This document shows positions 38,212-43,809 of a stretch of DNA of 64,000 nt, piece after piece. The DNA is from Emcibacter sp. SYSU 3D8. GTDB lineage: Bacteria; Pseudomonadota; Alphaproteobacteria; SMXS01. The DNA lies in NCBI RefSeq assembly GCF_039655875.1, contig NZ_JBBYXK010000002.1, positions 248,001-312,000 of the forward strand. Direction: 5' to 3'. Position 1 is the first letter of the stretch. Every line of letters begins with the position of its first letter. A program made the translations under genes and the position numbers. The notes under the pieces are model-generated. The model was given only the letters and a program-made list of their open reading frames with translations, ran no database searches and was not told the origin of the DNA.

Positions 38212-39082
38212 GCGCGGTCTGTCCCGCCTCGATGCGGTGGCGCACCTCGGACATGAAGTCGACATGCGCCTCGATGGTGGTGAAACCCTTGCCCATGGAG
38301 TTGATCGAGGCATGGGTGCCGCCCAGGTCGCGCCAGCGCTTCACCGTATCGACGGTTTCCTGCAGATTGGTGGCGCGGATGGTGATCAGTTCGCGGCCGA
38401 AACCGGCTTCGGGCCGACCGGATTCCTTCAGGTGGTGGCGCACCCGCTCCCAGCCCTGGGTGGCGTGATCGATATCGCCGGCAAAGATGTATCCGTCGCC
38501 CAGCCGGCCGCCCCGCCTGAACGCCGGCTCGGTAAAACCGCCGACCCAGATGGGGATCTGCCGCTTCGGGCGCGGCAGGATGTTACCCTTGTCGATGTGG
38601 TCGAACTTGCCGTCGAAACTCATGACCTGCTCGGACCATAGCCGGCGCAGGAACGGAATCTGCTCGTCGGCGCGGGCGCCGCGGGTTTCGAAGTCCTGGC
38701 CCAGGGCATGGTATTCGACGTAGTTCCAGCCGGTGCCGATGCCGAGACGCAGGCGCTGATGCGACAGCAGGTCCACATCGGCGGCCTGCTGGGCGACCAG
38801 CACGGTCTGGCGCTGCGGCAGGATCAGTACGCCCGTCACCATCTCGAGCCGGTGCGTGATGCCGGCCCAGTAGCCGAACATCACGAACGGGTCGTGGAAC
38901 GGATGGTTCTCGGTATAGGGCCCCCACAGCTTGGGTTCGCGGTCGTGGGAGGCGCCAACCACATGGTCGAACACCAGAATGTGGTCGTAGCCCAGTTTCT
39001 CGACGGCAAGGCCGATGTCGTGCACGGCCTTCGGATCACCCTTCAATTCGGTTTGCGGATAGACGGCGCCCAGTTTCATCAC
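38198..39082 (-). CDS. LLM-class (luciferase-like, F420-dependent type) oxidoreductase
   Basis: A 294-residue TIM-barrel protein of the luciferase-like monooxygenase superfamily, in the F420-dependent-type subgroup. It begins MKLGAVYPQTELKGDPKAVHD and has LEMVTGVLILPQRQTVLVAQQAADVDLLS, the LRLGIGTGWNYVEYHALG substrate/cofactor loop and IPIWVGGFTEPAFRRGGRLGDGY. Cofactor F420 versus FMN cannot be decided from the sequence. It overlaps the upstream NTF2-like gene by 4 bases. A second paralogue is at 57636. Confidence 0.88.
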   Translation of the reverse strand: MMKLGAVYPQTELKGDPKAVHDIGLAVEKLGYDHILVFDHVVGASHDREPKLWGPYTENHPFHDPFVMFGYWAGITHRLEMVTGVLILPQRQTVLVAQQAADVDLLSHQRLRLGIGTGWNYVEYHALGQDFETRGARADEQIPFLRRLWSEQVMSFDGKFDHIDKGNILPRPKRQIPIWVGGFTEPAFRRGGRLGDGYIFAGDIDHATQGWERVRHHLKESGRPEAGFGRELITIRATNLQETVDTVKRWRDLGGTHASINSMGKGFTTIEAHVDFMSEVRHRIEAGQTAPMVV

Positions 39083-39612
39083 GCTCTCCCCAGGTTAGGT
39101 AGCAAACGGTAGGACAGGTCCGAGGTGTCGCGCCTGCCGGGAAGCGGCTGCTGCCCGGGCGTGCCCGGATAGAGAATAGCACCGACGTCGCGGGCGCGCA
39201 CCGGCACCATGGTGCTCATGTCCGACACGAAGACGCGGTCGGCGATACGCCAGCGGCCCTCGGCCTTGCGCCAGGTATCGAGGTATCGGCCATGACCGAT
39301 CAGATCGATCAACTCGTCGCCCTGCTGCATGCGCAGCGTGACCTGCACCATGCTCTCGCTGACCGCCGCCGCGTCGCCGGTGAAGTCGACCAGCATGTTG
39401 CAGACCCGGTGGGTGTGGCAGACCATGGACGCGTGCACCGGCCACAGCCAGTCGACGAAGCCCGCGGGCGACCCGTTGTAGAGGCCGCTATATTCCAGTG
39501 TCGCATCCGGCCAGAAGCAATCCAGCGCCAGTGGCGCGTCCATGCGGTCCATGGAGCGGCAATAGCGATAAAGCGTCTCGTGGATGTCCAGCTTGTCCTC
39601 GGTTCCCGGCAT
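39079..39612 (-). CDS. NTF2-like / SnoaL-type domain protein
   Basis: A 177-residue protein of the nuclear transport factor 2-like fold, SnoaL_4 type. The start DIHETLYRYCRSMDRMDAPL with FWPDATLEYSGLY is the typical N-terminal helix with the conserved Tyr/Arg and Asp. A C-terminal sheet includes GHGRYLDTWRKAEGRWRIADR. Such proteins can be isomerases, dehydratases or ring-hydroxylating dioxygenase small-subunit relatives. It is coupled by a 4-base overlap to the LLM oxidoreductase, suggesting a joint catabolic step of unknown substrate. Confidence 0.83.
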   Translation of the reverse strand: MPGTEDKLDIHETLYRYCRSMDRMDAPLALDCFWPDATLEYSGLYNGSPAGFVDWLWPVHASMVCHTHRVCNMLVDFTGDAAAVSESMVQVTLRMQQGDELIDLIGHGRYLDTWRKAEGRWRIADRVFVSDMSTMVPVRARDVGAILYPGTPGQQPLPGRRDTSDLSYRLLPNLGRA

Positions 39613-39723: not shown

Positions 39724-40365
39724 CTACCGGCGCAGCAACCGGCCTCCGGAGACGGTCAGTGCAAGGGTCACCAGCGCCACGGCCGCCGCGTGGGCGGCAA
39801 GATCGGTTGCCGTCGCGTCGAACGGGTGGCCGATGTTGAGGAGGGCTGCCGATGCCGCTGCACAGGCAAGCCCCGCGAGCCCCGCCGTCAACATGGGATA
39901 AAGCGGGAAAACCCGGCGCAGCAGCACCACAATGGCGACCGCCAGCGGAATCGATGTGCCGAGGATGAACCTCAGGCATTCCAGATCCTCACCGCCCTGC
40001 CAGCCGCTTTCGGCCCAGTTGCGCAGGCAGCCCATGCCGCTCGCGCCGATCCACAGCAGCGCCGCCGGCAGCGGCAGCAACGCCCACAGGCGCGAGCGCC
40101 CGGGCACGCCCAGTTCGAACGCGGCCTTGGCCGCCAACAGGGCGGTGAGCAGCGCACCCAGCGCGGCAAGCCACAGATCGGTGGCCGAGGCCAGCCGGGC
40201 CATCATGGCATCCATGTCGAATATCAGGGAAAGCCCCGCCGCGATCAGCGACGCGACGCCGAGCCACACCAATGTGAGCCGGTTTGGCGAAGCGGCACGG
40301 CGGACCGGCATCAGGCCGGCGCCCAGGTTGCGGATCAGGGATTCGGTGGAGCGGCTGTCTGTCAT
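39724..40365 (-). CDS. nrsF: NrsF/DUF1109-type membrane anti-sigma factor
   Basis: A 213-residue polytopic protein with six hydrophobic segments (about 31-49, 62-82, 92-110, 135-150, 157-177, 186-205), the DUF1109 pattern. NrsF proteins hold SigF-type ECF sigma factors inactive and release them on stress. In Caulobacter conserved cysteines are needed for the response. Cys113, Cys130 and Cys168 here are candidates. The gene directly follows the sigma factor (TAG then ATG, no gap), as in known sigF-nrsF operons. Confidence 0.85.
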   Translation of the reverse strand: MTDSRSTESLIRNLGAGLMPVRRAASPNRLTLVWLGVASLIAAGLSLIFDMDAMMARLASATDLWLAALGALLTALLAAKAAFELGVPGRSRLWALLPLPAALLWIGASGMGCLRNWAESGWQGGEDLECLRFILGTSIPLAVAIVVLLRRVFPLYPMLTAGLAGLACAAASAALLNIGHPFDATATDLAAHAAAVALVTLALTVSGGRLLRR

Positions 40366-40995
40366 CTAGCCTTCCCAGCCGCTCAGCCGCGTCCGCAGCG
40401 ACTTCAGCGCGCGGTGCAGGTTGACTTTCAGTGCCCCCTGAGACCGGCCGGTAGCCATGGCCGCCTCGGCAAGGGTTCGATCCTTCAGCGTCAATTCCTC
40501 GACGGCCTGACGCTGGCCATCGGGAAGCGAGTCGACGGCGCGGCGCAGGTCACCGTCCAGTTCAGGGCGCGTCGGCCTGACGGGCGCGGGGTCGGCATGA
40601 GACGCGTAAGCCAGCTCGTCATGGACTTCACGCGACCGCTGCCGTCCCTGCCGGCGCAGCAGGTCGATGGCACGGCGATCGGCAATGGTGCGCAGCCACG
40701 CCCGGAACGAGCGGGTGGGGTCGTAGGTGTGGCGCGCCCGGTGAATGGTCAGCAAGGTTTCCTGGACCACGTCGTCGACCGTTTCAGGCGGCACGCCGCG
40801 GCCGCGTGCGACCGCCCGGACGAGGGGAACGGACGCGTGCAACAGCGCATCGTAGGCGGCCTGGTCGCCGGCCTGCGCCGACGCCATCAGCCCGCCCAGA
40901 TGGCGGTCGATCTCGTCCCGTTCACGTTTGTCCACTCTGCTGGTTCCGGAAGCGCGGAACGCGCCTTGATCTAGGCTAAGGACACCTGCTGGCAT
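40366..40995 (-). CDS. sigF: ECF sigma factor, SigF type
   Basis: A 209-residue extracytoplasmic-function sigma factor. Region 2 is visible as VDDVVQETLLTIHRARHTYDPTRSFRAWL followed by RTIADRRAIDLLRRQGRQ. Region 4 is SLPDGQRQAVEELTLKDRTLAEAAMATGRSQGALKVNLHRALKSLR. It lies 25 bases downstream of the molybdoenzyme gene and immediately upstream of the NrsF-type anti-sigma. I use ATG 40995, with AGGGA 8-9 bases upstream. The nearby GTAACC-N16-CGAA promoters match the SigF consensus known from Caulobacter, so it probably drives its own operon. Confidence 0.9.
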   Translation of the reverse strand: MPAGVLSLDQGAFRASGTSRVDKRERDEIDRHLGGLMASAQAGDQAAYDALLHASVPLVRAVARGRGVPPETVDDVVQETLLTIHRARHTYDPTRSFRAWLRTIADRRAIDLLRRQGRQRSREVHDELAYASHADPAPVRPTRPELDGDLRRAVDSLPDGQRQAVEELTLKDRTLAEAAMATGRSQGALKVNLHRALKSLRTRLSGWEG

Positions 40996-42453: not shown

Positions 42454-42479
42454 TTCGCCGGAGTCAGGCTGCGGGTTAC
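42454..42479 (-). promoter_or_regulatory. SigF-type ECF promoter for cytb-molybdoenzyme-sigF-nrsF
   Basis: On the minus strand GTAACC (42479-42474) is followed by a 16-base spacer and CGAA (42457-42454). This is the exact GTAACC-N16-CGAA form reported for SigF-dependent promoters in Caulobacter. The -10 element lies 36 bases before the cytochrome b start. The assignment to SigF is inference, supported by the sigma gene being in the same operon. Confidence 0.82.
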
Positions 42480-42527
42480 ATCATGCCATGAAAATTTCGC
42501 TCGCGGGGCCCTATTGGCGGCGGGCGT

Positions 42528-42553
42528 GTAACCTTTCATACCGTCCTGCCGAA
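42528..42553 (+). promoter_or_regulatory. SigF-type ECF promoter for msrA-msrB
   Basis: On the plus strand GTAACC (42528-42533), a 16-base spacer and CGAA (42550-42553) form a second exact copy of the SigF promoter pattern, facing away from the first. It ends 49 bases before the msrA start. Two identical-spacing sites back to back in a 185-base divergent region argue strongly against chance. Confidence 0.83.
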
Positions 42554-42602: not shown

Positions 42603-43301
42603 ATGAACCGATTCTTTCACCCGCTTTCCCGCATTCTCGCCACCGCGCTCGCCGCCGCCATGCTGACTGCGCCGCCGGCTGCATCCGCCGAGAAGGCGGT
42701 CGCCATTCCGCCGCCCGCGTTCGATGCGCCGTCCACAGCGACGTCGGCAACCGCGATCCTGGCGGGTGGCTGCTTCTGGGGCGTGCAGGCGGTTTTCCAG
42801 CACACCAGGGGCGTCACCAGCGCCGTCTCCGGCTATGCGGGCGGGACCGTCAAGTCGCCGCGCTACAAGGCCGTGACCTCAGGCCGTACCGGCCACGCGG
42901 AAGCGGTCAAGGTAACCTATGATCCCCGGCAGGTTACCTATGGACAGCTGCTGCACATCTTCTTCTCGGTGGTTCACGACCCCACCCAGCTTAACCGGCA
43001 GGGACCCGACACGGGGACCCAGTACCGCTCGGCGATCTTCACAACCAGCGACAGCCAGATGACGGTTGCGACCGCCTATATCGCCCAGCTCGACAAGGCG
43101 CAGGCCTATCCCAGGTCCATCGTCACCAAGGTGCAGGCTGCGCCGAAATTCTGGCCCGCCGAGAACTATCACCAGGACTACGCCACGCTGCATCCGGAAA
43201 GCCGCTACATCGCCTATTACGATCTGCCGAAGATCGCCAATCTGAAGAAGATGTTCCCGCAGCAGTACCGCGATCAGCCGGTGCTGATCGCCGCGAAATA
43301 G
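42603..43301 (+). CDS. msrA: Peptide-methionine (S)-S-oxide reductase MsrA, exported
   Basis: A 232-residue MsrA with the catalytic motif GGCFWG. The fold residues GVTSAVSGYAGG and the C-terminal ENYHQDY are present. Unlike cytoplasmic MsrA it has an N-terminal signal peptide (MNRFFHPLSRILATALAAAM with cleavage near AASA), so it acts in the periplasm. A strong AGGAGAG ribosome site precedes the ATG. It is 4 bases upstream of msrB and is driven by the SigF-type promoter. Electron supply to a periplasmic MsrA is not evident in the window. Confidence 0.95.
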   Translation: MNRFFHPLSRILATALAAAMLTAPPAASAEKAVAIPPPAFDAPSTATSATAILAGGCFWGVQAVFQHTRGVTSAVSGYAGGTVKSPRYKAVTSGRTGHAEAVKVTYDPRQVTYGQLLHIFFSVVHDPTQLNRQGPDTGTQYRSAIFTTSDSQMTVATAYIAQLDKAQAYPRSIVTKVQAAPKFWPAENYHQDYATLHPESRYIAYYDLPKIANLKKMFPQQYRDQPVLIAAK

Positions 43302-43305
43302 GAGC

Positions 43306-43809
43306 ATGGCCATGTATACCAGACGATCCGTGCTGTTCGGCGGCGCCGGCCTGCTCGCCGCCCTTGGGGCGACGGGTGTGGTGCGGGCCGGCGCGAAATC
43401 CGCAGGCGCCGAGACCTTCGAAGTCACAAAAACCGACGCGGAGTGGCGGGCGCTGCTGAGTCCCGCTGCCTACCGGGTGCTGCGCCGCGAAGGAACCGAG
43501 CCGGCATTCACCAGCCCGCTCGACCACGAGAAGCGCGCCGGCACCTTCAGCTGCGCCGGTTGCGGCCTGCCGCTGTTTTCATCGAAGACCAAGTATGACA
43601 GCGGCACCGGCTGGCCCAGTTTCTGGAGGCCGCTGGCAAACGCCGTGCGCACGAAACCCGACCGCTCGCATGGCTGGGTCCGCACGGAAGTGCACTGCCG
43701 CCGCTGCGGCGGCCATCTGGGGCATGTGTTCAAGGACGGGCCCAGACCAACCGGCCTGCGCTATTGCATCAACGGCCTGTCGCTGACCTTCACGCCCGCC
43801 AAGGCGTGA
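43306..43809 (+). CDS. msrB: Peptide-methionine (R)-S-oxide reductase MsrB, exported
   Basis: A 167-residue MsrB with the two zinc CxxC pairs (CAGCG and CRRCG), the SGTGWPSFW motif and the catalytic Cys in GLRYCINGLSL. The N terminus is a Tat-type leader (TRRSVLFGGAGLLAALGATG with AGA near the cleavage site), again pointing to the periplasm. Together with MsrA it covers both sulfoxide stereoisomers. It is the second gene of the SigF-promoter operon. Confidence 0.95.
   Translation: MAMYTRRSVLFGGAGLLAALGATGVVRAGAKSAGAETFEVTKTDAEWRALLSPAAYRVLRREGTEPAFTSPLDHEKRAGTFSCAGCGLPLFSSKTKYDSGTGWPSFWRPLANAVRTKPDRSHGWVRTEVHCRRCGGHLGHVFKDGPRPTGLRYCINGLSLTFTPAKA

Follow-up and report, generated by a model that had tools for sequence, protein, structure and literature searches.

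Back-to-back SigF-type promoter motifs between msrA-msrB and a molybdenum oxidoreductase-sigF-nrsF gene group in Emcibacter sp. SYSU 3D8, and an anti-sigma factor with histidine at the presumed sensor-cysteine position

The window analyzed here is a stretch of 64,000 nucleotides from Emcibacter sp. SYSU 3D8 (contig NZ_JBBYXK010000002.1, positions 248,001 to 312,000, forward strand), in which two groups of genes diverge from a common intergenic region. On the minus strand, the gene of a b561-type cytochrome (PF01292; 41776..42417) overlaps by 4 bases the gene of a molybdenum (Mo) oxidoreductase (PF00174; 41021..41779), a distant MsrP/YedY relative whose Tat-like start precedes a lipobox-like LTGC. 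The next gene, sigF (40366..40995), starts 25 bases past the Mo enzyme gene and encodes an ECF16-type ECF sigma factor in which ECF regions 2 and 4 were found, although its score against the best NCBIfam model (PRK12512, a named model and not the formal ECF16 profile) was below the cut-off (122 vs. 198). It is abutted by nrsF (39724..40365), the product of which is a membrane anti-sigma factor of the NrsF/DUF1109 family (PF06532, 59.9 bits at a cut-off of 26.8) with C113, C130, and H180. The sigma gene is therefore located in one of the two operons, as originally predicted, and its anti-sigma gene adjoins it. On the plus strand, msrA (42603..43301; signal-like N-terminus, TIGR00401 over cut-off) is followed by msrB (43306..43809; Tat-like RRSVL start, TIGR00357 over cut-off). 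Downstream of nrsF, a SnoaL_4 protein is encoded (39079..39612, minus strand), for which a role was sought and none found. Its gene lies near nrsF in all six genus genomes with NrsF, and its copies are 72-93% identical to the window copy; in four of the five other genomes it is the best conserved neighbor compared. Possibly, it belongs to the nrsF operon. One genus member (G006) has a CGTAACG-N16-CGAA between nrsF and the SnoaL_4 gene.

Two exact copies of GTAACC-N16-CGAA, one per strand, had been predicted in the divergent region and were located at 42454-42479 (minus strand) and 42528-42553 (plus strand). As the prediction had it, the window holds no further exact match, the mean number expected by chance being 0.02, and two matches occurred in none of 100 shuffles. 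Both boxes are preceded by T and thus read TGTAACC. The left predicted SigF-type promoter (TGTAACC-N16-CGAA, then TGAG) spans 42454..42480 on the minus strand and the right one (followed by TGAC) 42527..42553 on the plus strand, and both sites are kept in five aligned genus genomes. Their reading as SigF-type promoters is supported by this conservation and by the ECF16 promoter consensus, tGTAACc-N16-CGAA (PMC3420878; this and the other papers are cited from excerpts), which is found here ahead of the operon that holds sigF. Transcription from the motifs and co-transcription of the genes behind them are presumed. The start of Bradyrhizobium ecfF was mapped ~6 bases past CGAA (PMC3420878), and with the same offset the leaders would measure ~30 bases on the cytochrome side and ~43 bases on the msrA side. 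Between the genes, neither sigma-70-like promoters (1 vs. 0.9 in shuffles) nor terminators (3 vs. 2.8) were in excess. An additional element, RTGRCATRR (42481..42489, minus strand), abuts the left -35 box; it was present in 5/5 cytochrome-sigF promoters of the genus and in 0/74 motif instances at other loci, and is perhaps where a second regulator acts on the sigF operon. A sigma-54 reading of this element, considered only by eye, was given up.

NrsF is present in six of the seven genus genomes, this one included, and absent from G005 (78% complete). In five of these six (again including this one) the whole layout is kept: the genes of the cytochrome, the Mo enzyme, SigF, and NrsF run one way, msrA-msrB runs the other way, and each side has its motif; nrsF adjoins sigF in all six. 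The sites vary slightly (N17 on the left in G001, TGTAACT and CGTAACC on the right in G002 and G006, respectively). When the five genomes were aligned, 20/22 motif columns were invariant vs. 9/69 columns of the spacers and the middle (p = 2.7e-11), the latter made up of 4/16 and 2/16 in the two spacers and 3/37 in the middle. The leaders (12/36 and 20/49 invariant columns) and the additional element (5/9) stand outside this contrast. In the sixth genome, G003, the motif stands directly ahead of sigF, none of the enzyme genes of either operon was found in the 15 kb fetched around it, and one msrB is located elsewhere in the genome. As the genus genomes are related, counts obtained from them are not independent.

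A motif count over the genome and its relatives, proposed with the original prediction, was weak evidence with the bare 10-base pattern and became specific with a longer one. In the whole genome (4,066,951 bases) GTAACC-N16-CGAA occurred 7 times vs. 5 for the reversed pattern, and the five copies outside the divergent region were situated within long open frames (four) or where a frame of the opposite strand begins (one). The bare motif fails to distinguish genuine sites from chance matches genome-wide, and its count was rejected as proof since the reversed control is nearly as high; it was replaced by a T-extended pattern and by a comparison of genomes with and without NrsF. TGTAACC-N16-CGAA was found 3 times vs. 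0 for the reversed pattern in this genome (15 vs. 2 across the seven genus genomes), and TGTAACN{16,18}CGAAT 22 times vs. 3 across the seven. Sixteen of these 22 matches precede genes of the proposed regulon; five lie outside it (L187 in G002, L182, L188, and L193 in G003, and L199 in G000, inside a 774-codon frame), and the remaining one is L185 in G005. Although no NrsF was found in G005, this genome has an exact TGTAACC-N16-CGAA match in common with G004: the identical sequence TGTAACCCGCATTTCGCTTGAGTCGAA occurs in both (L206 in G004, L207 in G005), 26 bases ahead of a gene that we take to be dapF-like.

The comparison drew on 41 genomes, seven from the genus, three from its family, and the remainder from the class. 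In the 10 NrsF-bearing genomes TGTAACN{16,18}CGAAT was counted 32 times vs. 3 for the reversed control, as against 32 times vs. 41 in the 31 lacking NrsF (Fisher p = 1e-6 for the excess). Of the former counts, 21 vs. 3 come from the six genus members, whose counts are not independent of one another, and 11 vs. 0 from the four other genomes. The motif might have been equally frequent elsewhere, the outcome that would have spoken against the original prediction; the extended form exceeded its control only where NrsF is present. At 75 class loci (78 minus two without a sigma factor found and one with too little upstream sequence), YGTAAC-N16..18-CGAA was found near the sigF start in the sense direction at 19, on the opposite strand at 33, and on both at 5, while the reversed letters, searched on the sense strand only, were found at 0/75. 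Motifs on both strands near sigF are hence not unique to the genus. In a distant alphaproteobacterium (G019), contig C24 (17960-18043) bears two TGTAAC-N-CGAAT motifs arranged back to back at a distance of 28 bases, and contig C13 has three motifs of this type around msrA and sigF. Methylobacterium sp. Leaf118 shows the order sigF-nrsF, motif (N15), and a pair of cytochrome b and Mo enzyme genes.

The last 450 bases of sigF, intended as control windows, contained the motif in the sense direction at 12/75 class loci and antisense at none, and were later read as harboring nested promoters. In a second, overlapping set the motif was found at 2/86 loci (L066, and L029 again), with 0 antisense and 1 in reversed letters. 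It is situated in the linker that joins regions 2 and 4, ~205-240 bases before the end of sigF and shortly ahead of nrsF. Ten of the 14 rows of one sigma clade carry it (L029, L132, L133, L134, L136, L141, L148, L155, L158, and L168), as do L149, L154, and L066 outside of these ten, the linker position in L149 and L154 being different from that in the clade. In 9 of these 10 rows of the clade CGAA is followed by T, a base outside the search pattern, despite differing encoded residues. This looks like a nested promoter that would give the anti-sigma gene its own SigF control; the window's own operon is without such a motif.

The predicted SigF regulon, as read from motif positions, consists of sigF itself, the exported MsrA and MsrB, and a DUF1223 protein. 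YGTAAC-N17-CGAA precedes the DUF1223 gene in all four genus genomes that have one (here at position 124726 of contig C3), and YGTAACC-N16-CGAA precedes DUF2282-DUF692 genes in all three that have these; a search for DUF2282 in the present genome found none. Operons of the latter type are SigF targets in Caulobacter (PMC3511200) and belong to bufferin clusters, near which sigma and NrsF genes occur (PMC12452194). G002 has one more site, ahead of a redoxin gene. This genome has a further msrA and a further msrB on another contig, and no motif was found in their fetched flanks.

The characterized proteins NrsF, OsrA, and AbcS have two conserved cysteines, C131/C181 or C129/C179 (PMC3511200, PMC3420878, PMC8315932). 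In OsrA, the C129S exchange destroyed EcfF binding, and C179S left binding intact and abolished the response to H2O2 (PMC3420878). An internal C131-C181 disulfide under stress was excluded by the Caulobacter authors, as single mutants still respond (PMC3511200). In the window NrsF the first cysteine corresponds to C130, and the place of the second is taken by H180, preceded by G179, with no cysteine nearby; another cysteine, C113, is located in the loop ahead of C130. By its sequence the protein belongs in PF06532 and outside the C131/C181 subtype.

NrsF was surveyed in 385 genomes of the class, of which 80 yielded 90 places; 78 proteins (4 of them from the genus) were compared, the other 12 being fragments and the weakest matches. 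C130 is present in all 78. The second position is occupied by C in 37, H in 34, E in 6, and D in 1, i.e., the sensor-column cysteine is missing in 41/78 (40/78 if a slip of one residue is allowed). C113 was found in 30/78, always together with H180, and together with the second cysteine in 0/78 at the exact columns (1/78, L176, with a one-residue slip). Among the 11 proteins with neither, 8 have a CxxC at 130-133 and 3 are without an obvious partner cysteine. Aspartate stands at 183 in 27/30 of the C113 group, 26/37 of the second-cysteine group, and 7/11 of those with neither. In a set selected by sigma similarity (87 rows minus the misaligned L065 and the reference copy), C113 occurs in 71/85 and is accompanied in 20 of these by a cysteine beside H180, mostly in Dyella, Rhodanobacter, and their kin and in the genus member G006. 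Strict mutual exclusivity of C113 and the second cysteine was rejected on account of L176 and these 20/85; it is a tendency and not a rule. Two alignments were made: A4, whose 59 rows are the window protein and 58 out of 71 candidates, all picked for C113 and C130, so that the invariance of H180 is its one informative feature, and A5, with 36 of the 37 rows picked for the second cysteine. The residue types follow the sigma tree, on which the H type needs three changes; as the tree allows a single origin of the H type, the co-variation may represent one event. In three enterobacterial SigF-NrsF pairs (L081, L090, and L110; Kluyvera, Kosakonia) the usual His-Cys is reversed to Cys-His at 179-180 and C113 is lacking.

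Judged by its residues, the window NrsF appears to belong to a large C113/C130/H180 subfamily in which C113 would stand in for the sensor cysteine. A position alternating between C, H, E, and D resembles a metal ligand, and with C130 fixed, Cys/His/Glu/Asp at 180, and a helper cysteine at 113 or 133, this swappable pattern might fit a metal-binding redox switch better than a fixed cysteine pair, a preference that we put forward tentatively. NrsF could then be a periplasmic metal-binding redox switch with a swappable second ligand, the membrane analogue of zinc anti-sigma factors like RsrA, which we offer as a conceivable model and rate below its opposite. No solved relative of NrsF was found by sequence. 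No description of C113-type NrsF proteins was met in the literature searched, among which the main ECF re-classification paper did not appear, so that an earlier notice is possible; none was described in the excerpts of PMC3511200, PMC8315932, PMC3420878, PMC6180224, PMC9751292, PMC12452194, PMC8103513, and PMC4598750.

Taken as a whole, the best explanation, which we hold with good confidence, is that the motifs serve as divergent promoters for SigF, the ECF16-type sigma factor whose gene lies in the left operon; this factor would be held by NrsF, released upon stress, and direct the two operons and the DUF1223 gene. Together the twin promoters probably switch on the repair of oxidized extracytoplasmic proteins and their own sigma factor. 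By analogy with the relatives, from which the holding and release of SigF by NrsF and the use of this motif by SigF are taken over, SigF would be held at rest by the membrane protein NrsF until periplasmic oxidative (or metal) stress alters the latter and SigF is freed. RNA polymerase with SigF would then transcribe both operons: the msrA-msrB products would repair oxidized methionine in exported proteins, and the cytochrome b-Mo oxidoreductase-sigF-nrsF operon would add a second exported redox enzyme and renew both the switch (sigF) and, because nrsF directly follows, the brake. Elsewhere in the genome SigF would also drive the secreted DUF1223 protein. The sensing site is likely C113 with C130 and H180, as sensing of the C179 type (Bradyrhizobium OsrA) would be impossible with a histidine at that place. 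Chromate, hypochlorite, or peroxide as the trigger is borrowed from relatives, an analogy that is not fully supported and is weakened by the lack of their second (sensor) cysteine.

The original prediction of a self-amplifying switch holds insofar as sigF lies within the left operon behind a motif of its own type; with nrsF encoded on the same message, the loop may instead limit itself and produce a pulse or a set level. This alternative, which concerns the dynamics and not the promoters, has somewhat less than an even chance in our estimation. It gains from the adjacency of the two genes here and throughout the NrsF-bearing genus members, from the additional SigF-type motif inside sigF, just before nrsF, in some other alphaproteobacteria, and from Caulobacter, where sigF is weakly autoregulated (a point that also counts against the best explanation) and its operon is not strongly autoregulated under metal stress (PMC3511200); in Bradyrhizobium, however, ecfF has a mapped promoter of its own and is 18.8-fold up without OsrA (PMC3420878).

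Both promoters had been proposed to face genes for methionine sulfoxide repair, and for the right one, ahead of msrA-msrB, this was borne out. The left Mo enzyme reached 77.5 bits against the MsrP model, well under the cut-off of 207, and PF01292 is the only Pfam match of its cytochrome partner, which also has a weak resemblance to the formate dehydrogenase N cytochrome; MsrQ comes from a different family of membrane proteins. Sulfite oxidases are also among the solved relatives of the Mo enzyme, and so the pair might not be a methionine sulfoxide reductase and could act on another small periplasmic substrate (e.g., sulfite or another sulfoxide). We consider this possible, yet the less probable option: the best solved relative is 1xdq, deposited as a bacterial sulfite oxidase, which we take to be YedY/MsrP, and the genes are linked to msrA-msrB, with the same promoter type, in five genus genomes.

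That the motifs are real ECF promoters read mainly by a sigma factor other than the neighboring SigF would agree with the activity that the Caulobacter sigF promoter region keeps without SigF (PMC3511200) and with the additional element at the left -35 box, but it is improbable, given that the motif excess follows NrsF presence over the 41 genomes, that this genome yielded a single NrsF, and that ECF16 sigma factors use this motif (PMC3511200, PMC8315932, PMC3420878). Chance coincidence, for which only the near-equal genome-wide counts of the bare pattern speak, was ruled out for practical purposes by the expectation for the window and by a pair that kept its position and motif in five genomes with differing spacers.

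With SigF as the reader of both motifs, the locus would constitute a small regulon, open to experimental testing, for methionine repair in the envelope of a lineage that has received little study. The presumed stress-sensor cysteine of ECF16 anti-sigma factors is missing in about half of the NrsF proteins sampled, and natural variants with swapped residues make oxidant or metal sensing directly testable. As judged from sequence, bacterial stress switches of this kind are already known; the present one has a sensor protein without the cysteine of the studied sensors.

The layout is known in kind from Caulobacter SigF and Bradyrhizobium EcfF. Caulobacter crescentus SigF-NrsF resembles it in the GTAACC-N16-CGAA promoter, the sigF-nrsF pair, a YedY-like target (CC2748; here a YedY-like gene), and the location of sigF beside another SigF operon, CC3254-CC3257 (PMC3511200), which by our own reading of the gene numbers is divergent. 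Unlike the proposal made here, the msrA genes of Caulobacter are not SigF-dependent; the operon beside its sigF belongs to the DUF2282-DUF692 type, absent from this genome, and its NrsF has C131 and C181, the second being His here (PMC3511200). Bradyrhizobium japonicum EcfF-OsrA likewise comprises an ECF16 sigma factor with its own promoter of the same type and a six-helix anti-sigma factor, OsrA, and is autoregulated and controls methionine sulfoxide reductase genes; its motif differs, GTAAC(g,a)-N14-15-(c,t)CG(t,a), the excerpt mentions no Mo enzyme operon such as the one present here, and its sensor is C179, where the window protein has His (PMC3420878). In Brucella melitensis, the ECF16 pair BcrS-AbcS is linked to MsrP/MsrQ-like genes (bcrXQP), has the consensus (T/C)GTAAC-N17-CGAA, and serves HOCl resistance, but differs in the methionine-rich scavenger BcrX, the MsrQ homologue, and C129 and C179 of AbcS, with no msrA in the text searched (PMC8315932). 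The zinc anti-sigma factor RsrA would be comparable only if NrsF carries a metal that is released on oxidation; RsrA is soluble and has a HisXXXCysXXCys motif (PMC4598750), whereas NrsF is a membrane protein of PF06532.
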